A stretch of 11,156 nucleotides of DNA, from assembly GCA_012800135.1 (NCBI GenBank), contig JAAZJV010000249.1, positions 1 through 11,156 on the forward strand, read 5' to 3'. A program made the position numbers and the translations under genes. The notes under the pieces were generated by a model. That model was not told the DNA's origin. It saw only the letters and a list, made by a program, of their open reading frames with translations, and ran no database searches. Source of the DNA: Clostridiaceae bacterium. Its GTDB lineage: Bacteria > Bacillota > Clostridia > Saccharofermentanales > DTU023. Within the stretch, counting starts at the first letter, position 1; the number at the start of each line of letters is the position of its first letter. Below, piece by piece: positions 1 to 9,135 of the stretch.

Positions 1-2
1 CA

Positions 3-254
3 GAGGAGATTCGACTTTTATTTGACATTTTTAGTCTTTATAAAAATCTGGCTACATCACGTCTTGTCGAACTATCACATCAGCCGAACGGCCCTTGGCA
101 CAGAGCCTACGCAAACGGTGTTGGAAAGAAAATCATACCTCTAGAAGAAATTGCACAGTTTTACCGACAGGCCTATATAAAGAATAAGTTTCCGAGAAGG
201 AGTGAACACTTATTGACACTAATTCCTGAGGCAGAGCAAATCTCGATCGAGTAA
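3..254 (+). CDS. Panacea-domain (DUF4065-like) antitoxin, C-terminal part, cut by window edge
   Basis: The open frame enters from the left edge and ends at TAA 252-254, leaving about 83 residues. The segment YKNLATSRLVELSHQPNGPW, then HRAYANGVGKKIIPLEEIAQFY, resembles the end of the Panacea domain (formerly DUF4065): a short helix ending in a YG-like pair, a 'L..LSH...PW..A' core, then a helix after a proline. Panacea proteins, including SocA, are antitoxins that neutralise many unrelated toxin families. The gene lies 44 bases upstream of a PemK/MazF-like toxin gene on the same strand, the usual antitoxin-toxin order. The N-terminal half is outside the window, so any DNA-binding or other fused domain cannot be judged. 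The family call rests on motif memory over a short fragment; an unrelated phage-associated protein is the alternative. Confidence 0.6.
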   Translation, partial: EEIRLLFDIFSLYKNLATSRLVELSHQPNGPWHRAYANGVGKKIIPLEEIAQFYRQAYIKNKFPRRSEHLLTLIPEAEQISIE

Positions 255-298
255 TAAGAGCGGTCGTCAAAACAAAAAGAATAGGTACAAGGGTACGC

Positions 299-643
299 AT
301 GGCAAGTTTAGGTGAAATTTGGACGGCTGACTTTCCATACGAAGATAACCCGTCACAATCAGATGAAAGACCCGTTGTAATCGTGGGAGTTAACGATGAC
401 TTGTACCTATGTACGACTCTGATGATAACGTCTAAAGCCTCAGCGAAAGATCGCTATAGATATGAAATCCGCCATTGGCAACACGCAGGCTTAATCAAAC
501 AATCATACATTCGCTTATCTCGAAAACACACTTTTCGAATTTCACAATTGCGTAGATTCATCGGCTGTTTGCACCAAGAAGATCAAATCAATCTTTGGTT
601 CAAGATAGATGAATGTTATGGTCACGAGATCGGCCTCTTCTGA
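299..643 (+). CDS. PemK/MazF-like toxin (probable mRNA interferase)
   Basis: This 114-residue protein opens with LGEIWTADFPYEDNPSQSDERPVVIVG, the hallmark N-terminus of PemK/MazF toxins: a G-[DE]-[IV]-W strand, a short loop, then an RPV(V/L)(V/I) strand. The length is normal for the family. Known family members are small beta-barrel endoribonucleases that cut mRNA and are held inactive by an upstream antitoxin. The middle (TTLMITSKASAKDRYRYEI) and the end (LRRFIGCLHQEDQ) fit the remaining strands and final helix loosely, so it is a divergent member. The ATG at 299 is supported by AAGGG at 289-293, five bases upstream. It probably forms an operon with the Panacea-like gene ending at 254. Toxicity and target sequence cannot be read from the sequence. 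Confidence 0.65.
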   Translation: MASLGEIWTADFPYEDNPSQSDERPVVIVGVNDDLYLCTTLMITSKASAKDRYRYEIRHWQHAGLIKQSYIRLSRKHTFRISQLRRFIGCLHQEDQINLWFKIDECYGHEIGLF

Positions 644-797
644 TTAGAAATCACAGGGATTATCAGTACTATCAAGGATCTTTTGCACGTTTGTCCTGCT
701 AGCGCCCTGCCAACTAAGGCTAGAGACCAATCCCCGCCTAAAGAGTGATGAGGGCATTCAGCTAAAGTTATACCTGTAAAAAAGAGGGTTAACTGTC

Positions 798-826
798 TTT
801 CCCGAAATTGCTAAACAGGCTATAAT
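798..826 (+). promoter_or_regulatory. Candidate promoter of the crRNA-like RNA
   Basis: There is a perfect TATAAT at 821-826. The -35 at 17-base spacing is poor (TTTCCC, 798-803). Transcription would start about seven bases after the -10, at or next to position 833, exactly the first base of the repeat-like element. No protein start codon with a ribosome binding site follows, so the promoter would serve a non-coding transcript. Confidence 0.45.
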
Positions 827-832
827 GGCCAA

Positions 833-860
833 GTCAAGCTAACTGCTTGCGGGTTGAAAT
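833..860 (+). repeat. Solitary CRISPR-repeat-like element (pseudo-repeat)
   Basis: The array repeat is GT, a 7-base stem arm, a 5-base loop, the second arm, and an 11-base handle TGGATTGAAAT. This element is GT, arm CAAGC, loop TAACT, arm GCTTG, handle CGGGTTGAAAT. The plan is therefore 2-5-5-5-11 against 2-7-5-7-11; both stems are perfectly paired and 9 of the last 10 handle bases are identical. The stem sequence itself is different, as expected if pairing rather than sequence were conserved. It stands alone, more than 8 kb from the array. Confidence 0.6.
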
Positions 861-880
861 TATAGCATTTAGAGGATGAC

Positions 881-916
881 AGGGGCTACGATCACTCGTG
901 GCCTCTCTTCTGCTTT
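881..916 (+). terminator. Hairpin, possible 3' end of the crRNA-like RNA
   Basis: On the plus strand AGGGGCTACGA (881-891) pairs over 11 bases with TCGTGGCCTCT (896-906) around a TCAC loop; two pairs are G-U, so the fold is complete only in plus-strand RNA. It is followed by CTTCTGCTTT, a pyrimidine-rich but interrupted tail, so termination may be weak. The minus-strand transcript of cas3 would have two A-C mismatches here, so it is less likely to be the cas3 terminator. Confidence 0.4.
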
Positions 917-3155
917 AGGCGATAAACCCCGTACCCATTTTTGGCTCGATATTCAGGCCCTTCTCTTCAGTATATTGTGATGTGTCCCATAGAATTGCGG
1001 CAATAACGTCCGTGCCCTCTCGAACTTCCTCTACACAACGCTCGAGCAACTGGTAGTGTTTTTTGTATACCGCGACTGAATCCATTCCAAGCCTTCCCAA
1101 ATCTTCCCTGCTAACATCTTTGTAACGCAACCGATTAAGAAGCTCTATGTTGTCTTCATTAGGAATGTATATTGTTATTGTTTGCTCCTCAATCATTCGA
1201 AAGGAATCACAGCATTTTCTGAAATTAAGATTCACATGATTCATTAATACACCCTTCTCATCGAAACTGTGTTTTTCTGTGTAAACGCGGGATTCATTAA
1301 AACCAATTTCGTCCACGTAATAGCGCAATTGTTCAAAATACGTTTTGATCGTATCAAAATTGTCAAAGGACCCATACTTGCGAACTGCATAATTCATAGC
1401 GGATTGACGTCGTTTTACATACTGTGGAACAGGGTGATCGGACGATCTGAAAACACGAACAATACTTTTGTATTTGTCGTTTTTACCTTCACGATTGCAT
1501 CTCCCTCCAGCTTGTAATATTGAGTCTAATCCTGTTTCCTGACGAAACACATACGGAAAGTCAACATCAACGCCTGCTTCTATAAGTGACGTGGATACTA
1601 CCCGGCAAGACAAACCATCTTTTAGCCTTTGCCGAATTTGTTCTAGAACGCGACGCCTGTGATTTGGCGTCATATACGTCGAAAGATGAAAACACCCCTC
1701 TCCTTCAAGCAGATCGTAGAGAACCTGGGCCTGCTTACGAGTGTTGACGACACAAAGTACTTTGCTTTGCTGATTCAATTGACCGGCCAATTCCTCGTCT
1801 GACTGAGATCCTATATGCTTGTAAGTGACTCGCTTTAGTTTCTCGTATAGTTCAACAGGATTCTCCATTAGCTCGCGGATCGGATTCTCGGAATCAAAAA
1901 AATGGATTATTCTATCCAAAAATGGCTGTGTTGCAGTGCAAATAACAGCTGTCGAACCATAGTACTTCACGAGTTCCACAATTCCTGCAACACATGGATA
2001 AAGATGCTCAAGCGGAATAAGCTGTGCTTCATCGAAAATAATGACCGATCGCGCCAAACGATGAAGCTTTCGACAACGCGAGCTTTTGCTCGAAAAAAGA
2101 GACTCGAAAAATTGTACAGTTGTTGTAACAACAATAGGAATGTCCCAATTCTCAGAAGCAAGCCTCATTTTTATGGCATTTTCGCTTGGAATCTCAGCCT
2201 CTGAAGGATCGAACGAGAAATTAGAGTGATGCTCCAGAACACTTTCCTCTCCAAATATGTCGCGAAAAACGTCTGAACATTGCTCTATAATGCTGGTGTA
2301 TGGAATAACATAAATGATTCGTTCTAGTCCATGAACTATGGCATGTCTAAGAGCAAAACCCATCGACGCCGTTGTCTTCCCTCCGCCTGTTGGAACCGTG
2401 AGCGAATAGCAACCGCGTTGGTTTGTTCCTTGTTCTAAGCAGCGATACAAGATATTTGAACGTATTCGATTTAGCTCACCTGCCAAATTATCCCACCTGC
2501 CAATATATTGTCTAAACATCTCAAATAACTCCTCAATTGAGGTATGTTCTCTAAAGCGTTCTTTCTCCGGCGACATAAAAGCTTCTGTGTCAAGGTAATC
2601 TGCATCCACAAGACAAGAAAAAAGCATCCGTATAAAGAATGCGTGAGAGAATCTTGTTTTAGGTCCTGGGAGCTTTGGCAGCCATTCAGGAATTTCTATT
2701 GCAGGAATTGATATTTCGTCCAAATACACATCAATATTGACTCGTTGATCTCGCGCAACTTTTTTGATCCTACCCATCAAGTCAGGCATAGTCTCAGTGG
2801 ATGCGTTTGTACCCATATCTGGAATACCGGTATGATGACCTGCCACACAAAAACTACTAAAAATATCCTTCTTTTTCTCTTGACACGACAACCAAGCTCC
2901 TACAGATGAATGGTCACATCTCACATTCTTGCCGCGTATGCGTTCTTGAAACACACGCTGATATTTCCCAATATCGTGCAATAATCCCACTCGGCAACCC
3001 ATCCTCTCTGCAGAAAAAGTTCTGGCAAACTCAGCTGCCAATTTCGCAGTTTCTTTCAAATGATCGGCAAGATAGTGAACACGTCCATCATCTGCTCGGT
3101 GCGCAAAAAACTCTGATGTGTTATCAACGCCAATTCCCGTAGTAATGTTAACCAT
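915..3155 (-). CDS. cas3: CRISPR-associated helicase-nuclease Cas3 (type I-C)
   Basis: The 746-residue protein is the single-strand nuclease and translocase recruited by Cascade to destroy target DNA. An N-terminal HD nuclease domain shows DHL near residue 31, LLHDIGK with the HD pair at 60-61, DHSSVGAW from 81, GHH at 106-108 and the VDADYLD segment at 183-189. A superfamily 2 helicase follows: Walker A TGGGKT at 256-261, DEAQ box at 375-378, TAT at 407-409, and motif VI QAGGRCNR at 548-555. The C-terminal Cas3 domain is present. All key residues look intact. The ATG at 3153-3155 has AAGGAGA (3165-3171 on the plus strand) nine bases upstream. In the usual type I-C layout cas3 is the first gene of the operon on the same strand; here it is inverted and separated by 520 bases, so its expression can be controlled apart from Cascade. 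Confidence 0.97.
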   Translation of the reverse strand: MVNITTGIGVDNTSEFFAHRADDGRVHYLADHLKETAKLAAEFARTFSAERMGCRVGLLHDIGKYQRVFQERIRGKNVRCDHSSVGAWLSCQEKKKDIFSSFCVAGHHTGIPDMGTNASTETMPDLMGRIKKVARDQRVNIDVYLDEISIPAIEIPEWLPKLPGPKTRFSHAFFIRMLFSCLVDADYLDTEAFMSPEKERFREHTSIEELFEMFRQYIGRWDNLAGELNRIRSNILYRCLEQGTNQRGCYSLTVPTGGGKTTASMGFALRHAIVHGLERIIYVIPYTSIIEQCSDVFRDIFGEESVLEHHSNFSFDPSEAEIPSENAIKMRLASENWDIPIVVTTTVQFFESLFSSKSSRCRKLHRLARSVIIFDEAQLIPLEHLYPCVAGIVELVKYYGSTAVICTATQPFLDRIIHFFDSENPIRELMENPVELYEKLKRVTYKHIGSQSDEELAGQLNQQSKVLCVVNTRKQAQVLYDLLEGEGCFHLSTYMTPNHRRRVLEQIRQRLKDGLSCRVVSTSLIEAGVDVDFPYVFRQETGLDSILQAGGRCNREGKNDKYKSIVRVFRSSDHPVPQYVKRRQSAMNYAVRKYGSFDNFDTIKTYFEQLRYYVDEIGFNESRVYTEKHSFDEKGVLMNHVNLNFRKCCDSFRMIEEQTITIYIPNEDNIELLNRLRYKDVSREDLGRLGMDSVAVYKKHYQLLERCVEEVREGTDVIAAILWDTSQYTEEKGLNIEPKMGTGFIA

Positions 3156-3242
3156 ATAGTATTGTCTCCTTCACTACTCAGTTTGCTACGCACTACACTA
3201 AATTACAGAGATTCCCTACACAAACAAAGGAACTGATGGAAG

Positions 3243-3248
3243 ATAATA
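3243..3248 (-). promoter_or_regulatory. Possible -10 box of cas3
   Basis: The minus strand reads TATTAT here (5 of 6 to consensus), about 88 bases upstream of the cas3 ATG. No good -35 hexamer lies at 16-18 bases; the tandem 9-mer occupies that region instead, which would fit a promoter that depends on a bound regulator. This is weak on its own. Confidence 0.25.
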
Positions 3249-3253
3249 TGGCG

Positions 3254-3271
3254 GTAGCGACTGTAGCGACT
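3254..3271. repeat. Tandem 9-base direct repeat (iteron-like)
   Basis: GTAGCGACT occurs twice with no gap (3254-3262 and 3263-3271). It lies just upstream of the possible cas3 -10 box, a place where a repressor or activator commonly binds side by side. The regulator is unknown. Confidence 0.55.
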
Positions 3272-3561
3272 AATAAAGAATTTAGCACATCAAATATCGT
3301 CTCATATGCAATGTATTTATCGTCGTAGCATTTTCATTGAATTTATCATGTACCACCACATATCTTTGAACTGACTTTCGCTCTATATAACAGCTATATT
3401 CTTTGTCATAAGTATAAAGCTTTACAGAAAAACGAACTCTTCGCTACCAACCTTTCAGCTTTAGCGCTTTTAAGAGTTGAACGGCATACTTCTTCTCAAG
3501 CATTGTCAACACTCTTCCATTCAATCTTCTAAACTCAGAATCTCCGCAAGCTAAACTTATT

Positions 3562-3589
3562 GACATGTCTGTTTGACGAATTCGTCTAA
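3562..3589. promoter_or_regulatory. Palindromic operator candidates at the cas operon promoter
   Basis: Two perfect palindromes lie close together: GACATGTC (3562-3569) and GACGAATTCGTC (3575-3586). The second extends to TTTGACGAATTCGTCTAA (3572-3589) with only one non-complementary pair. Both share the pattern TTGAC...GTC. The larger one covers the -35 element of the cas5c promoter, so a dimeric regulator bound here would be expected to block transcription. Which protein would bind is not shown. Confidence 0.5.
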
Positions 3590-3601
3590 GGCAACTAACA
3601 T
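3573..3601 (+). promoter_or_regulatory. Likely promoter of the cas5c-cas2 operon
   Basis: TTGACG (3573-3578, 5 of 6) and TAACAT (3596-3601, 4 of 6) are separated by 17 bases. The predicted start is near 3608, giving a 5' leader of about 68 bases before the cas5c start. A second -35-like TTGACA at 3560-3565 has no good -10 partner. Confidence 0.5.
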
Positions 3602-3620
3602 TAGCTTAAAATCTATAGAA
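3600..3620 (-). promoter_or_regulatory. Partial target site of the crRNA-like RNA, with TTC PAM
   Basis: Read on the minus strand, TTC (3620-3618) is followed by TATAGATTTTA (3617-3607). The spacer-like stretch at 861-871 reads TATAGCATTTA. Positions 1-5 and 8-11 match; position 6 is one of the bases flipped out of pairing in Cascade guides (shown for type I-E), leaving one true mismatch at 7. Beyond position 11 only position 16 matches. TTC is the known PAM of several type I-C systems. The site spans the predicted transcription start, where a bound Cascade would block RNA polymerase. Confidence 0.45.
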
Positions 3621-3628
3621 TGGAGGGC

Positions 3629-3643
3629 GTTGATTCTATCAAC
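3629..3643 (+). promoter_or_regulatory. Inverted repeat in the 5' leader of the cas operon
   Basis: GTTGAT and ATCAAC are separated by TCT (3629-3643). In DNA it may be an operator; in RNA it is a small hairpin about 20 bases before the cas5c ribosome binding site. Without a U-tract it is not a terminator. Confidence 0.3.
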
Positions 3644-3675
3644 AATCAGAAGCACATTTGGAAAGGAGGTAGATT

Positions 3676-4350
3676 TTGGCTATACAAGTAGAAGTATGGG
3701 GTGACTATGCTTTGTTTTCAGCCCCTGAGTTTTCGACAGAGCGCTTGACCTATGACGTCATTACGCCTAGCGCTGCGAGAGGTATTTTGGAGGCGGTATT
3801 TTTCCATCCTGGTATGCGTTTTGTCATTGATCGCATACATGTTCTTAATCCAATTGAGTTCGCTTCGATTAGACGGAACGAAGTATCTAAAAAGATCTCC
3901 GCATCGAATGTTCTGGCAGCAGCAAAAGGTGGTGATAAACAATTATTTTTGGCGACCAGTCAGTCAATTCAGCAAAGAGCGGCTGTCGTCTTAAAAAATG
4001 TTCGCTATATGATTGAAGCGCATTTTGAAATGACGGACAAAGCAACTGAAGCCGATAATCCAGGGAAATTCCAAGCAATGTTAAAAAGGCGCTTAAGTCG
4101 TGGGCAATCATACCACCAACCTTATTTAGGAACGAGAGAGTTTCCAGCACGGTTTCGTTTGTGGGAAGGCGGTGTGATTAATGCCATTCAGGAGACACGC
4201 GATCTTGGGTTTATGCTGTTGGATTTCGACTACCGAAACCCGGAAGACATCAAGCCTATCTTTTTTAGGGCTAAAATGGTCCAAGGAGTAATTTCGCCGC
4301 CAGATCCTGTAGCGTGGTTGAGAAACAACGGGGGAGGAGTGATTCTATGA
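3676..4350 (+). CDS. cas5c: Cas5c (Cas5d), Cascade subunit and presumed pre-crRNA nuclease
   Basis: This 224-residue protein matches the type I-C Cas5 family from its start (VEVWGDYALFSAPEF, then TYDVITPSAARGILEA, DRIHVLNPIEFASIRRNEV) to PYLGTREFPA near 149-158. Type I-C has no Cas6, and Cas5c cuts the repeat at the base of its hairpin, then stays on the 5' handle. The start is TTG at 3676, chosen because AAAGGAGGT (3662-3670) lies six bases before it. Odd: at the positions of the Bacillus halodurans Cas5d catalytic Tyr46, Lys116 and His117, by my hand alignment, it has Phe42, Lys131 and Phe132, so only the lysine is kept. Either nearby residues such as His44 serve, or processing differs here. 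The stop overlaps the cas8c start as ATGA, indicating coupled translation. Confidence 0.93.
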   Translation: MAIQVEVWGDYALFSAPEFSTERLTYDVITPSAARGILEAVFFHPGMRFVIDRIHVLNPIEFASIRRNEVSKKISASNVLAAAKGGDKQLFLATSQSIQQRAAVVLKNVRYMIEAHFEMTDKATEADNPGKFQAMLKRRLSRGQSYHQPYLGTREFPARFRLWEGGVINAIQETRDLGFMLLDFDYRNPEDIKPIFFRAKMVQGVISPPDPVAWLRNNGGGVIL

Positions 4351-6149
4351 TTTTGCGATCATTAAATGACCTCTATTATCGTCTTCTCGAACAAGGAGAG
4401 ATCGCTCCTGCAGGCTGGACAATAGAGAGAGTACATTATGCTGTCGAAATCGATTCAAGCGGTGAACTACTTGATATTATTCCGCTAACGGACGAACGTG
4501 GTAGAAGACAAAAAAAGTATCGGATGATGCAGATCCCCGCTCGCGGTACTCGAACATCAACGAAAATTCTTCCACACTTACTGTGTGATACATCTCCTTA
4601 TTTTTTTGGTATACCGAACAAAAAGGACATCTCAAAAGACAAGATTGAATACGAAAAAAGTAGAGCAAGAAAATGTTTTGTTGCAAGCAGGGAACTCCAC
4701 AAGAAACTGCTTGCGGGCATTGATGACCCTAGCGCACAAGCCGTTATACGCTTTTACGAAAAATGGGATCCCGAGAAAGCTAAGCAACACCCTGTTTTGC
4801 GTGATAAATATGACGAGATACGAACAAAAGGCTCTCTTATCTGGATGCCTAATGGGAGATATATCACAGATAATGAAGCAATCACGGCAGCGGTGGATGC
4901 TTTGACATCACAAGATAGTAGCGAAGGTGAGAATGTTGTTGTCGGACAGTGTCTCGTAACAGGAGAAAGAGATCACATTGCGCGAATTCACCCGCTAATC
5001 AAAGGCGTTTTCGGTGCTCAATCAAGCGGCGCATCGCTTGTAGGCTTCAACATAGATTCTGCTTGCTCGTACGGTCGTAGTCAGTCATACAATGCGCCGG
5101 TGGGAAAAAGAACGGCTGTTGCATATAGTCAAGCTCTGAATCACTTGCTGAAAGACAATGATCATAAACTAGTGATGGGCGATACGACAGTGGTGTTTTG
5201 GGCGGAATCACCAAGCAATTCATATCCCGACCTTGTAACGATGTCCTTTAACCCAAATCCGGACGTGATTTCGATGGACAATCGTACACTCAAAGAGTCA
5301 GTTGAGATGTTATCTCAAGGGAAAATCATTGACTTCCACGAGGAACAGATTGATCCTAGCACGCCTTTTTTCATGCTGGGCTTGTCTCCTAATGCCGGAA
5401 GACTTTCCGTTCGTTTCTTTTTTAATAGTAGTTTCGGCAGTCTCATGAAAAATATAGATGAACACTGGAAGAGGTTAGAAATCGTTAGACCGATTAATGA
5501 TGAGAGAGAACTGTTGTCCATGTGGAGTTTGCTCTGCGAAACAGTAAATAGAAATAGAAAAGCTGAAAACCCGAAACCATCACCACAGCTCACAGGTGAT
5601 TTTTTGAGAGCTGTAATTGAGAATCATCGCTATCCAGATACTTTGTTGCTTGCAGTGCATCGTCGTATTTTGGCGGAGCAAGGCTATGTTACAAGAGGAA
5701 GAGCAGCATTAATTAAAGCATTTTTACTGAAGAACACTGAGAATAGAGTAATAAAGGAGGTTGTGAATTCTGTGAAACTCAATGAAGAAACTCGCTATGT
5801 ACCATATATTCTTGGGAGATTATTTTCCGTCCTTGAAAGTGTACAAGAATCAGCAAATCCAGGCGTCAACACGACGATACGGAATCGATATTTTAGCGCT
5901 GCATGCAGTACTCCAGCGATGGTATTTCCTGTGCTTATCAGATTGACTCAGAGTCATCTAAGAAAATTAGACAAAAAACTTGCAACATACTATCAAAAGC
6001 AAATAACCGAGTTGCTAGGACACATGGAGGTGTCATTTCCAACGCACTTAGTCCTACAGGATCAGGGGATATTTGCCTTAGGTTACTATCACCAAAGACA
6101 AGAGCGCTTTGCAAAAAAGGAGGAGAAAACAAATGATAGAACCAATTAA
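4347..6149 (+). CDS. cas8c: Cas8c (Csd1), large subunit of type I-C Cascade
   Basis: The 600-residue large subunit recognises the PAM and opens the target duplex. Family hallmarks seen are CLVTGE at 202-207 followed by IARIHPLIKG, GAQSSGAS at 223-230 then LVGFN, APVGKRTAVAYSQALN, TTVVFWAE, and a C-terminal block with NPG, RNRYFSAACSTP and FALGYYHQRQ. Length is usual for Csd1. The ATG at 4347 is preferred over a GTG 33 bases upstream because GGAGG (4333-4337) lies nine bases before it and it overlaps the cas5c stop. The C-terminal part also contains the independent start of Cas11c. The gene runs 17 bases into cas7. Confidence 0.95.
   Translation: MILRSLNDLYYRLLEQGEIAPAGWTIERVHYAVEIDSSGELLDIIPLTDERGRRQKKYRMMQIPARGTRTSTKILPHLLCDTSPYFFGIPNKKDISKDKIEYEKSRARKCFVASRELHKKLLAGIDDPSAQAVIRFYEKWDPEKAKQHPVLRDKYDEIRTKGSLIWMPNGRYITDNEAITAAVDALTSQDSSEGENVVVGQCLVTGERDHIARIHPLIKGVFGAQSSGASLVGFNIDSACSYGRSQSYNAPVGKRTAVAYSQALNHLLKDNDHKLVMGDTTVVFWAESPSNSYPDLVTMSFNPNPDVISMDNRTLKESVEMLSQGKIIDFHEEQIDPSTPFFMLGLSPNAGRLSVRFFFNSSFGSLMKNIDEHWKRLEIVRPINDERELLSMWSLLCETVNRNRKAENPKPSPQLTGDFLRAVIENHRYPDTLLLAVHRRILAEQGYVTRGRAALIKAFLLKNTENRVIKEVVNSVKLNEETRYVPYILGRLFSVLESVQESANPGVNTTIRNRYFSAACSTPAMVFPVLIRLTQSHLRKLDKKLATYYQKQITELLGHMEVSFPTHLVLQDQGIFALGYYHQRQERFAKKEEKTNDRTN
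5772..6149 (+). CDS. cas11c: Cas11c, small Cascade subunit made from an internal start in cas8c
   Basis: Type I-C loci have no separate small-subunit gene; the known solution is internal translation of the last quarter of cas8c. Here a full AAAGGAGG (5753-5760) sits inside cas8c, with an in-frame GTG at 5772, eleven bases after it. The product would be 125 residues, identical to Cas8c from residue 476. It begins KLNEETRYVPYILGRLFSVLE, the point where known Cas11c proteins start. The in-frame GTG at 5763 is only two bases from the ribosome binding site and is less likely. The protein is mostly helical and would line the Cascade belly to hold the displaced DNA strand. Expression is inferred. 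Confidence 0.75.
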   Translation: MKLNEETRYVPYILGRLFSVLESVQESANPGVNTTIRNRYFSAACSTPAMVFPVLIRLTQSHLRKLDKKLATYYQKQITELLGHMEVSFPTHLVLQDQGIFALGYYHQRQERFAKKEEKTNDRTN

Positions 6150-7062
6150 AAATCGTTATGAATTCGTTGTTTTATTTGACGTCGAGAATGGTAATCCAAA
6201 CGGCGATCCTGATGCGGGAAATATGCCTCGTATTGATCCAGAGACAGGCCACGGAATTGTCACAGATGTTTGCATTAAACGAAAGATTCGAAATTATGTT
6301 GAAACAGTGAAGGAAAGCGCTGAGGGATATGACATATACATCAAGGAAAATGTGCCTTTGAACCGCAGTGATCTAAGAGCCATCAACTCTGTGTGCAAAC
6401 AAAAAGATTCGGCGGCACTTGATAGCGATTCCGAGAAAGCTGTGACCGAAAAACTTAAGGAACTCAAGAAAACTAACCCTAACATCGACTCCATCTTGCG
6501 AGACTACATGTGCGAACACTTTTTCGATATTCGCACATTTGGCGCTGTCATGACAACGTTTGTCAAGGGTGCGCTCAATTGCGGGCAAGTAAGAGGGCCG
6601 GTACAACTCAGCTTTGCTCGCTCAATCGATCCAGTAGTGCCAAGAGAGATTACGATAACTCGAATTGCTATTACAACTGAAAAGGATGCAATCGAAAAAA
6701 AGACAGAATTCGGGAATAAGTTCATTATTCCGTATGGACTTTACAAAATGGAAGGGTATATATCAGCTAATTTAGCACGTAAGACGACAGGATTTTCGGA
6801 GGTAGACCTAGAATTACTGTGGGAAGCCATCAAAAACATGTTTGAGCACGATCGTTCTGCAGCTCGCGGGAAAATGACTGTTAGAGAATTAATCGTTTTT
6901 AAGCATGCTTCTGAACTCGGAAACGCACCAGCACACGAATTATTTGATTTGGTGAGAGTAAATCGAATTGATGAGGGAAGACCTGCGAGAAGCTATTCCG
7001 ACTATGAGGTAAAGATTCTCGAATCACAAGTCCCAGAGAACATTCAACTTATTCGCATGTAA
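6133..7062 (+). CDS. cas7: Cas7 (Csd2), Cascade backbone subunit, type I-C
   Basis: This 309-residue protein forms the repeating backbone that coats the crRNA spacer. It opens with the signature YEFVVLFDVENGNPNGDPDA near 9-28 and continues with the family blocks TDVCIKRKIRNYV, FFDIRTFGAVM, VRGPVQLSFARSIDPV, NKFIIPYGLY and HDRSAARGKM. The ATG at 6133 is chosen because GGAGG (6119-6123) lies nine bases upstream; an in-frame start at 6109 lacks such a site and sits within cas8c. It overlaps the end of cas8c by 17 bases, so the two are probably translationally coupled. The stop at 7060-7062 is followed by the only sizeable gap in the operon. Confidence 0.96.
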   Translation: MIEPIKNRYEFVVLFDVENGNPNGDPDAGNMPRIDPETGHGIVTDVCIKRKIRNYVETVKESAEGYDIYIKENVPLNRSDLRAINSVCKQKDSAALDSDSEKAVTEKLKELKKTNPNIDSILRDYMCEHFFDIRTFGAVMTTFVKGALNCGQVRGPVQLSFARSIDPVVPREITITRIAITTEKDAIEKKTEFGNKFIIPYGLYKMEGYISANLARKTTGFSEVDLELLWEAIKNMFEHDRSAARGKMTVRELIVFKHASELGNAPAHELFDLVRVNRIDEGRPARSYSDYEVKILESQVPENIQLIRM

Positions 7063-7082
7063 CATGACAACAAATCATCCTG

Positions 7083-7132
7083 AGCTCAGTCACACCTGCC
7101 AAAGGAAGTGGCTGAGCTGTGAAGAGGTGTGA
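7083..7132 (+). promoter_or_regulatory. Two mutually exclusive RNA stems before cas4
   Basis: Stem A: AGCTCAGTCAC (7083-7093) pairs with GTGGCTGAGCT (7108-7118), 11 pairs with one G-U. Stem B: TCACACCT (7090-7097) pairs perfectly with AGGTGTGA (7125-7132), which contains most of the cas4 ribosome binding site GAGGTG (7124-7129). The stems share 7090-7093 and cannot both form in full. Stem A leaves the ribosome binding site open; stem B hides it. No U-run follows, so it is not a classical terminator. It may tune cas4-cas1-cas2 levels or stabilise the upstream Cascade message. Confidence 0.5.
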
Positions 7133-7137
7133 TTAAA

Positions 7138-7803
7138 ATGATGGAATATCCGGAAGATAAATGGCTACTGCTATCAGGCATTCAGCACTTTGTTTACTGT
7201 CGGAGACAGTGGGCTCTTATTCATGTTGAAAATGAATGGGTTGATAATTCGCTCACAACACTCGGGAAATTAATTCACGAATCTGTTCATGAGTCCGCAA
7301 GACGATTTGAAAGACGAGGAAACCTGCTGATCGCGAGAGGATTGCATGTCTGCTCACGTAGACTAGGAATTACGGGTGTGTGCGATGTTGTTGAGTTTAT
7401 AAAAGACGATATCGGCATTGAGCTCTATGGGGTGAAAGGAAAATACAAGCCAATTCCCGTCGAGTATAAACGTGGAGTCCCGAAAAAAAGTGACGAAGAT
7501 ATTGTGCAAGTAACAGCACAGGCAATGTGTCTTGAGGAAATGCTCGGCTGTGAGATTCTCAATGCGACACTGTATTACGGGTCAACCAAGCGAAGGCTAG
7601 TGATTGCTATAGATGAACAACGAAGAAACAGGGTGCGAGAATTATGTGCAGAAATGCACCACCTAATGGATCGACGTTTTACTCCACATGTGAAAGTCGG
7701 GGAAAAGTGCAAATCCTGTTCCTTGCGGGATATCTGTTTGCCAGATATGGATAGATTTAACTCAGCCAAACGCTATGTACAGCAATCGGTAACGGAGATC
7801 TGA
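7138..7803 (+). CDS. cas4: Cas4 exonuclease with iron-sulfur cluster (spacer selection)
   Basis: This 221-residue RecB-like nuclease works with Cas1-Cas2 to trim prespacers and ensure they carry the right PAM. The four cluster cysteines are present: Cys21 in YCRRQW, and Cys191, Cys194 and Cys200 in CKSCSLRDIC. Nuclease residues are His47 (LIHES), Asp83 (GVCD) and the Glu109-Lys111 pair in PVEYKRG, followed by a QVTAQAMCLEE helix typical of RecB folds. The ATG at 7138 is eight bases after GAGGTG (7124-7129); an upstream GTG at 7129 overlaps that site and an ATG directly follows at 7141. The gene ends two bases before cas1. Confidence 0.95.
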   Translation: MMEYPEDKWLLLSGIQHFVYCRRQWALIHVENEWVDNSLTTLGKLIHESVHESARRFERRGNLLIARGLHVCSRRLGITGVCDVVEFIKDDIGIELYGVKGKYKPIPVEYKRGVPKKSDEDIVQVTAQAMCLEEMLGCEILNATLYYGSTKRRLVIAIDEQRRNRVRELCAEMHHLMDRRFTPHVKVGEKCKSCSLRDICLPDMDRFNSAKRYVQQSVTEI

Positions 7804-7805
7804 TT

Positions 7806-8837
7806 ATGAGACAGATGCTCAACACACTTTATGTCACAACGGGTGACGCTTATCTGAGTCTAGACGGAGAAACGATTGTCCTGACCCAAGATGGCGACGT
7901 GTTAAAGCGATATCCCCTGCTTAATTTTGAATCAATTATCAAGTTTGGACATATGGGGGTTAGTCCTGCGCTTCTGGGGCATTGTGCTAAGCACAATATC
8001 CCTATTTGTTTCCTATCTAGACATGGTCGTTTTCTTGCCCGCGTCGTTGGTGAATACAGGGGAAATGTTGTGTTGCGAAAGCAACAGTATAGAATATCCG
8101 ACGATGAGACCCGATCGCTAGGAATAGCGCGCAATTTTATTGCAGGAAAAATCTATAATTCACGACGCGTCTTAGATCGCACTGTGCGCGATCATGCGCT
8201 CCGAGTAAACGTTCCTTTAATCAAACAAAAAATGGGCTTTCTAAAAGAAGGGCTAAAGAATTCATATAAGGCACAAAGTCATGAATGTCTGCGAGGAATT
8301 GAGGGCCGAGCATCCGCAGATTATTTCGGTGTATTTGATGAGATGATTTTGCAGCAGAAAGATGATTTTATGTTTGCAACACGATCACGGCGTCCCCCGA
8401 GAAACAGAGTGAATGCACTCCTGTCTTTTCTGTACACATTGTTGACCCATGATTGCGCGTCTGCTCTTGAGACAGTTGGTCTCGATCCATATGTTGGCTT
8501 TCTTCACCGGGATCGTCCCGGTCGCATGAGCTTAGCTCTTGATCTTATGGAAGAAATGCGCCCTTTCATTGTTGATCGACTTGTTCTTTCAATAATTAAT
8601 CGAAAACAAATAACAGTTTCTGATTTTGACACTGAAGTTGCAGGCTCAGTTCTTCTAAATGACGAAGGTCGAAAAAAGGTTCTCTTTGCTTGGCAAGAAG
8701 CCAAGCAGGACAGCATTAAGCATCCATTTCTTGGCGAGAGCATATCAAGAGGACTCATCCCACACGCACAGGCACAATTATTGGCTAGATTCATTAGGGG
8801 AGATATCGATGATTATCCTCCTTTCTTTTGGAAGTAA
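7806..8837 (+). CDS. cas1: Cas1 integrase, type I-C
   Basis: The 343-residue spacer integrase starts MRQMLNTLYVTTGDAYLSLDGE, the usual type I-C Cas1 opening. Expected metal-binding residues are visible: Glu166 in LRGIEGRAS, His234 in GFLHRDRPGR, and the acidic group Asp246 to Glu250 in LALDLMEEMRP. The length is standard and no frame damage is seen. GGAG at 7794-7797, inside the cas4 end, lies eight bases before the ATG. It forms a tetramer-dimer complex with Cas2 and, with Cas4, inserts new spacers next to the leader. Confidence 0.97.
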   Translation: MRQMLNTLYVTTGDAYLSLDGETIVLTQDGDVLKRYPLLNFESIIKFGHMGVSPALLGHCAKHNIPICFLSRHGRFLARVVGEYRGNVVLRKQQYRISDDETRSLGIARNFIAGKIYNSRRVLDRTVRDHALRVNVPLIKQKMGFLKEGLKNSYKAQSHECLRGIEGRASADYFGVFDEMILQQKDDFMFATRSRRPPRNRVNALLSFLYTLLTHDCASALETVGLDPYVGFLHRDRPGRMSLALDLMEEMRPFIVDRLVLSIINRKQITVSDFDTEVAGSVLLNDEGRKKVLFAWQEAKQDSIKHPFLGESISRGLIPHAQAQLLARFIRGDIDDYPPFFWK

Positions 8838-8841
8838 ACAC

Positions 8842-9135
8842 ATGCTGATACTGATATCATACGATGTAGAGACAAAAACTCTTGAAGGCAAAAAAAGGTT
8901 GAGAAAGATATCGCGTATTTGTTTAAAATACGGCATGCGTGTCCAAAACTCAGTCTTTGAATGTCACGTTAATGCATCCCAGAAAATATTATTGACACAA
9001 GAAATTACAAACGCAGCAGATCTTAACTGTGACAGCATCAGAATATATGAGCTTGGCAACCGTTACAAAGGTCGAGTTGAACACTATGGTGTTAAAAGTA
9101 TTGACGATGTGAAATCAGATGTAATTATTGTGTAG
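8842..9135 (+). CDS. cas2: Cas2, structural partner of Cas1, type I-C
   Basis: The 97-residue protein has the ferredoxin-like Cas2 fold pattern: MLILISYDVE with the conserved Asp8, then KRLRKISRICLKYGMRVQNSVFECHV, very typical of type I-C Cas2. The ATG at 8842 follows the cas1 stop by four bases, with GGAAG at 8830-8834 seven bases upstream; longer in-frame versions would lie within cas1. It ends at TAG 9133-9135 and is the last gene before the leader. It probably bridges two Cas1 dimers during integration. Confidence 0.96.
   Translation: MLILISYDVETKTLEGKKRLRKISRICLKYGMRVQNSVFECHVNASQKILLTQEITNAADLNCDSIRIYELGNRYKGRVEHYGVKSIDDVKSDVIIV

Follow-up and report, generated by a model that had tools for sequence, protein, structure and literature searches.

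A lone repeat beside cas3 of a type I-C locus

The window, which is the whole stretch of DNA analysed here, is an entire contig of 11156 bases from an assembly of 1.65 Mb that is 84% complete. It holds cas3, an operon that starts with cas5c, a CRISPR array and, adjoining cas3, a putative guide RNA gene (Table 1). The families TIGR01863, TIGR02589, TIGR00372, TIGR03640 and TIGR01573 (cas8c, cas7c, cas4, cas1 and cas2) were found over cut-off in the operon, and within the contig the array repeat TGCGTGGATTGAAAT occurs 28 times without a mismatch. Upstream of the guide gene, Pfam PF02452 identified a PemK/MazF-family toxin gene at 299-643 (+). Before it, a frame ends that weakly matches the SocA antitoxin (window 1-643, +), and the promoter of this pair lies off the contig.

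Table 1. Coordinates of the guide RNA gene, its predicted target and the surrounding locus in the window
Feature	Position	Strand	Basis
Predicted -10 of the guide RNA gene, TATAAT	821..826	+	sequence
Lone degenerate I-C repeat	833..860	+	sequence, fold, re-paired ortholog in L003
Guide TATAGCATTTAGAGGATGAC, 20 nt, seed 861-871	861..880	+	directly 3' of the handle; target match
Terminator-like hairpin, 11 pairs, tail CTTCTGCTTT	881..906	+	terminator scan, folds
cas3	915..3155	-	TIGR01587, TIGR01596; BLASTN blocks for orientation
Predicted cas5 promoter TTGACG-17-TAACAT	3573..3601	+	promoter scan; aligns with TTGACA-17-TACATT of L003
Predicted guide target, 35-nt protospacer frame	3583..3617	-	guide scan
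TTC PAM of the predicted target	3618..3620	-	guide scan, assembly search
cas5c, first gene of the predicted repressed operon	3676..4350	+	TIGR01876, over cut-off
cas8c, cas7c, cas4, cas1, cas2, remainder of the operon	4347..9135	+	families over cut-off
CRISPR array, 32-nt repeats, 28 copies, continues past the contig end	9319..11132	+	sequence, repeat search

The element at 833-860 was confirmed as a real lone degenerate repeat of type I-C, located ~8.4 kb away from the array. It consists of GT, the stem arms CAAGC (835-839) and GCTTG (845-849) around a TAACT loop, and the 11-nt handle CGGGTTGAAAT (850-860), which ends in TTGAAAT. The array repeat reads GT, CGCAGCC, CTCGC, GGCTGCG and TGGATTGAAAT. 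The initial annotation had credited the element with the exact architecture of this repeat. This holds loosely, for the order of GT, stem, 5-nt loop and 11-nt handle, but not in detail, as the stem has 5 bp instead of 7, the total length is 28 nt instead of 32 and 2 of the 11 handle bases differ. In line with its proposal that a perfect TATAAT box places the transcription start at the first base of the element, a start 7 bases past the box would fall on base 833 (six-base spacing to GT). No good -35 was scored for the guide gene in the promoter scan. Likewise, the spacer-like stretch and the hairpin reported to follow the repeat correspond to the guide (861-880) and to an 11-pair hairpin (881-906) that stands where a second repeat would be. 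Neither in the window nor in the related locus L003 does a second repeat follow the guide; a hairpin is found instead.

Folded alone, the element reached -6.2 kcal/mol with a z of -1.6, and 16 of 200 shuffles folded as well, which is unimpressive by itself; for 833-916 the z was -2.8. The terminator scan of 700-3720 returned 3 terminator-like sites against 2.3 in shuffles, which is not above chance, and no Rfam family reached its gathering score in the window. The element is above chance because it has a same-genus ortholog and because other I-C loci hold guide/target pairs; the evidence is comparative and does not come from the fold.

The predicted target at the cas5 promoter and its counterpart in a relative

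Cascade flips out every sixth base paired with the crRNA and reads its target in fives. We scored the guide of the window along both strands of the entire contig, ignoring position 6, with TTC as the PAM of type I-C. The best TTC-flanked match in the contig is the site at 3617 (-), which lies 59 bp ahead of the cas5 start and agrees with the guide at 9 of the 10 seed positions (1-5 and 7-11) and has a mismatch at position 7. It covers the predicted -10/start, the -10 of the predicted cas5 promoter falling inside the target; the promoter scan itself gave 7 sites in the window against 6.4 in shuffles, which is not above chance. Two other matches were set aside for want of a PAM, one at 3274 (9/10, TAA in the PAM place) and one at 3614 (+) with ATC in that place.

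Searching the whole assembly for TTC plus seed with at most 1 mismatch yielded 2 occurrences, and TTC is intact only in the one at the cas5 promoter; the reversed seed pattern, used as a control in the same search, occurred once. An equally good match at a TTC site between cas3 and cas5 was reached by 1.1% of shuffled window guides and by 53 of 22288 12-mers of the contig. Beyond the seed the pairing is weak, with 1 of 4 at positions 13-16, and is among the shortest of all pairs described below. Taken by itself, the match between guide and predicted target is moderate evidence.

A Cas3 search of 59 genomes (the window's own and 58 relatives) gave any match in 10. Besides the own genome a close Cas3 (78%) was found in G009 only, a member of the same genus, and the same-genus comparison is made with this one relative. 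At its locus, L003, cas3 and cas5 point in the same direction and the element sits in the gap between the two, on the opposite strand. It reads GT, CGAGCCA, TTTGC, TGGTTCG and TGGATTGAAAT and aligns with the window element, including TATAAT and its spacing; the stem letters differ and the pairing is kept. Its predicted promoter, TTCTCA-16-TATAAT, scores 10/12. With up to 2 mismatches allowed, a search of G009 for this handle yielded only the element and no array. The hairpin after the guide of L003 has no T-run, and the terminator scan of L003 scored no terminator.

The guide of G009 differs from that of the window and has its own TTC-flanked site with a 10/10 seed at L003:3882, which is 63 bp before cas5 (59 in the window) and has the same orientation to cas5 as the window site. 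Beyond the seed 2 of 4 bases pair at positions 13-16. When guides and targets were swapped between the window and G009, the match was 6/10 in both directions. The two guides differ at 4 seed positions (2, 4, 7 and 11), and at 3 of these the target has changed alike. Guide and predicted target have thus changed together between the two genomes, with pairing and predicted targeting kept.

Compared with L003 by BLASTN, cas3 and the element of the window lie in opposite orientation to cas5, as if they had been inverted as one block. This inversion of 780-3155 parts the guide gene by ~2.7 kb from its predicted target, which stayed behind. Moved away from its target, the module of the window may be decaying. 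The inversion could also be an assembly error.

Lone handles and PAM-flanked sites in other type I-C loci

Further type I-C loci were gathered without regard to the element. We obtained 64 via Cas3 from GTDB genomes, and the Cas5d family gave 38 genomes within the family and 398 within the phylum. From these, 100 regions were retrieved, of which 30 were longer copies of loci already found. L157, L084 and L138 were removed as duplicates of L079, L006 and L036. Both cas3 and cas5 could be placed in 60 loci, and the gap exceeds 200 nt in 9. An element is present in 8 of these 9 gaps, with L057 as the exception (gaps under 60 nt were outside the scan).

As a handle rule we used a lone GG[AG]TTGAAA[CT], and targets were searched within 700 nt on each side, or 3000 nt in the window. 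Among the 48 distinct lone handles, window included, 14 had a target, 11 with TTC at 9 or 10/10 and 3 with TTT at 10/10. Guides placed on the regions of other loci found a TTC match of at least 9 in 12 of 2256 cases. For the 47 handles of the form GGATTGAAA[CT], duplicates included, the flanking trinucleotide was TTC in 10 loci and TTT in 5, and ten other trinucleotides gave 0 each. The remaining 34 of the 48 handles, which have no counted target, are array ends, coding sequence and some unexplained cases. L006 has no target under TTC alone, as its 10/10 site carries TTT.

Some matches were left uncounted. These are L167 (GTT) and L176/L177 (GTT, GTG), in which the seed matches at 10/10 with neither TTC nor TTT, as well as L036 (ATT), L161 (TTT) and L181, in which it matches at 9/10. 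The guides with GTT- or GTG-flanked matches are located at 3603 (-) in L167, 3973 (+) in L176 and 3972 (+) in L177. Moreover, 16 elements were folded and judged by eye, and in 12 of them the guide is closely followed by a strong hairpin. In L162 a complete second repeat takes the place of the hairpin, and in L156, L167 and L176 the hairpin after the guide is uncertain or absent.

For a held-out test the handle, the threshold and the distance were fixed beforehand, and a new sample was drawn from the class of the window. It comprised 391 genomes, of which 60 were over the family cut-off, and 57 fresh regions were fetched. Twelve of the 13 lone handles in this sample had a TTC target of at least 9 (11 of them at 10/10; spread over 11 loci), and the thirteenth had no TTC target of at least 9. 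Guide swaps within the held-out set, same-family guides being left out, gave a match in 1 of 128 cases.

One of these loci, L283, carries two elements, at 1398 (+) and 3785 (+), each with a 10/10 TTC target. One of the targets is near the cas5 start and the other near the cas3 start.

Positions 6, 12 and 13-16 had not been used in finding the 26 pairs. Nevertheless, guide and target match at positions 13, 14, 15 and 16 in 24, 23, 23 and 21 of them, respectively, and in the 12 held-out pairs alone 43 of 48 cells match at these positions. Farther out the count falls to 14 at position 17, 9 at position 18 and 4 at position 19, and positions 6 and 12 match in just 6 and 4 pairs. Such a pattern would fit a Cascade that reads in fives with the sixth base flipped and stops short of a full R-loop.

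We also applied a rule that is blind to the PAM (9/10 in the seed plus 3/4 at positions 13-16) to 220 non-redundant loci. It returned 23 pairs from 59 handles, and the PAM was TTC in 19 and TTT in 4, with no other. With five control motifs, the same search found between 4 and 18 pairs among 440 to 816 guides, and for one of these motifs 8 of 17 pairs were on a single PAM, GTT. The stricter rule is failed by the pairs of the window, G009, L270 and L285, in the case of the window because of the mismatch at 7 and only 1/4 at positions 13-16. A loose scan with any GAAA[CT] (9752 guides) was discarded; it produced 227 pairs with many PAMs, and many of the matches listed were palindromes or simple repeats.

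When ORFs of 150 codons or more are considered, the closest start is 7 to 207 nt away from the target in 21 of the 26 pairs. In L253 the target falls within such an ORF, 25 nt into its longest reading, and the targets of L162, L195, L205 and L281 are farther from such a start. Where cas3 or cas5 could be placed by tblastn, the ORF near the target, as far as it was identified, is usually one of the two.

Proposed repression of cas expression, alternatives and known systems

Since guide-target pairs recur in related systems, type I-C systems with such a pair probably turn down their own cas expression through a built-in guide. For the window we consider it very likely that the element encodes a CreR-type cas-regulating guide RNA of this I-C system, which would repress the cas5 operon. 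Observed here are the element with its ortholog, the PAM-flanked targets at cas promoters, guides that change together with their targets, and the pattern of pairing; we infer transcription, processing, Cascade loading, repression and release by competition. The guide RNA would be transcribed from its own promoter, and Cas5c would cut the lone repeat to leave the usual 11-nt 5' handle. The terminator hairpin would close the RNA instead of a second repeat, and the RNA would be loaded into Cascade. At the cas5 promoter the guide would pair over the seed only, so that the R-loop stays incomplete and Cas3 is not called, and the bound Cascade would block transcription of cas5-cas8-cas7-cas4-cas1-cas2. 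An abundance of array crRNAs, or inhibition of Cascade, would leave less Cascade with the guide, and cas expression would rise.

The element could also be a decayed, functionless array remnant that a rearrangement left beside cas3. Its shorter stem, the handle changed at 2 of 11 bases, the weak target match and the inversion of cas3 with the element are what a remnant might display. However, the G009 ortholog keeps promoter, handle and pairing despite altered stem letters, guide and target change together, and the pattern recurs in the held-out loci, so we regard decay as improbable. In this respect our data agree with the initial annotation, which had argued for function over a decayed array copy; when relatives were compared, no random decay of stem or handle was seen in G009, the sole same-genus relative with the element. 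The same annotation had suggested a guide like CreA or CreR. The CreR part is strengthened by the target at the cas5 promoter, the co-change in the sister locus and the recurrence in held-out loci. The CreA part gained no support, because no PAM-flanked match near the toxin genes is among the best ones, the toxin promoter being off the contig.

An antitoxin guide of the CreA kind would repress the adjacent SocA-like and PemK genes (CrePA-like), and the cas5 match would be accidental. The PemK-family toxin and the weak SocA-antitoxin fragment just upstream of the element invite this explanation, and the available part of PMC12737573 describes modules in which CRISPR controls a protein toxin. 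Nevertheless, none of the contig's best TTC-flanked seed matches is near the toxin genes, and with TTC intact and at most 1 mismatch the assembly has no site besides the cas5 promoter, although both searches leave out the toxin promoter, which is off the contig. As the target of the G009 guide also sits at cas5, we find such an antitoxin guide very improbable. A solitary repeat might finally act as a Racr-like decoy that only ties up Cas5c or Cascade, its 3' part being irrelevant. As far as the accessible text of PMC10651486 goes, RacrIC1, an I-C repeat unit standing on its own, acts as an inhibitor of type I-C CRISPR-Cas, and Racr and the window element are alike in being solitary repeat units, with one Racr known for type I-C. 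According to the same text, Racrs are inhibitory and belong to viral genomes, whereas the window element lies in a host cas locus, convergent with cas3, and has a guide that fits the cas promoter. It is not on viral or mobile DNA, being located between cas3 and a toxin gene, and the families matched by the ORFs scanned were Cas and toxin-antitoxin families. Moreover, its guide changes along with the site at the cas promoter, and a decoy needs no guide; there is hardly any likelihood left for it.

Returning to the CreR-type guide, we think it likely that type I-C systems often possess a built-in CreR that is mostly single-repeat and closed by a terminator-like hairpin. It would pair in a 5+5+4 pattern at the cas5 or cas3 promoter with positions 6 and 12 unmatched and would thereby place the Cas5c operon under an RNA that Cas5c makes; some loci (L283) would have two such guides, each next to one of the two promoters, and the guide of the window would act in trans after the inversion. 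In the part of PMC10651486 at hand, Cas5 is given as the crRNA processing enzyme of type I-C, and therefore the operon predicted to be repressed starts with the guide-making enzyme. If this is true, I-C would join the subtypes that hold cas expression down with their own effector and a dedicated guide, and the cell would limit self-damage yet respond to anti-CRISPR proteins or to a rise in crRNA.

The original paper on CreR (cas-regulating RNA) is reportedly that of Liu and co-workers from 2023. Shmakov and co-workers are said to have surveyed in 2023 standalone repeats near cas genes with spacers partly matching cas promoters, and most described elements of this kind are reportedly two-repeat mini-arrays. 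For CreR, a two-repeat mini-CRISPR layout is common, perhaps not required. CreR and the element of the window both represent ectopic repeat-derived RNA genes near cas genes with a crRNA-like 5' handle, and both have a guide partly complementary to a PAM-flanked site at the cognate cas promoter. Unlike the CreR reports, as far as their available text allows the comparison, the window belongs to subtype I-C, combines one repeat with a terminator-like hairpin, and the I-C targets are at cas5 or cas3 promoters. A CreR for type I-C was not found in our literature search, which did not reach two key papers. Type I-C cases may be in print because the survey by Shmakov and co-workers reportedly deals with such elements. 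They may also be in print because PMC12737573, in its accessible part, calls CreR widely distributed in type I; it puts the scope as 'Type I and Type V-A' and does not name I-C there. The available sections of PMC13131331 describe CreR more narrowly, for I-B, I-E and V-A. In these two reviews CreR is a crRNA-like RNA with partial complementarity to a cas promoter and a proposed role in autorepression by Cascade; the mechanism is given in PMC12737573, and the one proposed above for the window follows this scheme. Similarly, the accessible parts of PMC8501985 and PMC9458426 describe for CreTA/CreA a degenerate ectopic repeat RNA that guides Cascade to a promoter by partial pairing, with repeat degeneration as a common feature and two flanking repeats in most modules. 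By these accounts CreA targets a toxin gene and mostly has two repeats, whereas the element of the window has one repeat and a predicted target at a cas promoter. What may be new here, judged from sequence comparison, is a guide of the CreR kind in subtype I-C, mostly with one repeat and a terminator-like hairpin, and with a cas5 or cas3 promoter as its target.

The pairs offer a simple sequence rule (a lone GGATTGAAA handle, TTC and 5+5+4 pairing), which could be used to find guides elsewhere. They also represent naturally evolved cases that indicate how little pairing may suffice for Cascade to bind a site but not cut it.

In L156 at 2451 (+), L281 at 3742 (-) and L162 at 4439 (-) the element lies between the target and cas3, on the cas3 strand, so that in these loci a single promoter may serve both the guide and the cas mRNA; in L162 a further ORF lies between the element and cas3. 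L288 (2587), L291 (2587), L294 (2583) and L298 (2412), all on the + strand, have the handles GTGAGTTGAAAT or GTGAGTAGAAAT and a CTC-flanked 10/10 match that extends to 3 or all 4 of positions 13-16, which is perhaps the same device with a different PAM. Besides, L284 carries at 3180 (-) the variant handle GTGGATAGAAAT, which is outside the handle rule, and has a TTC target at 10/10 with 4/4 at positions 13-16.
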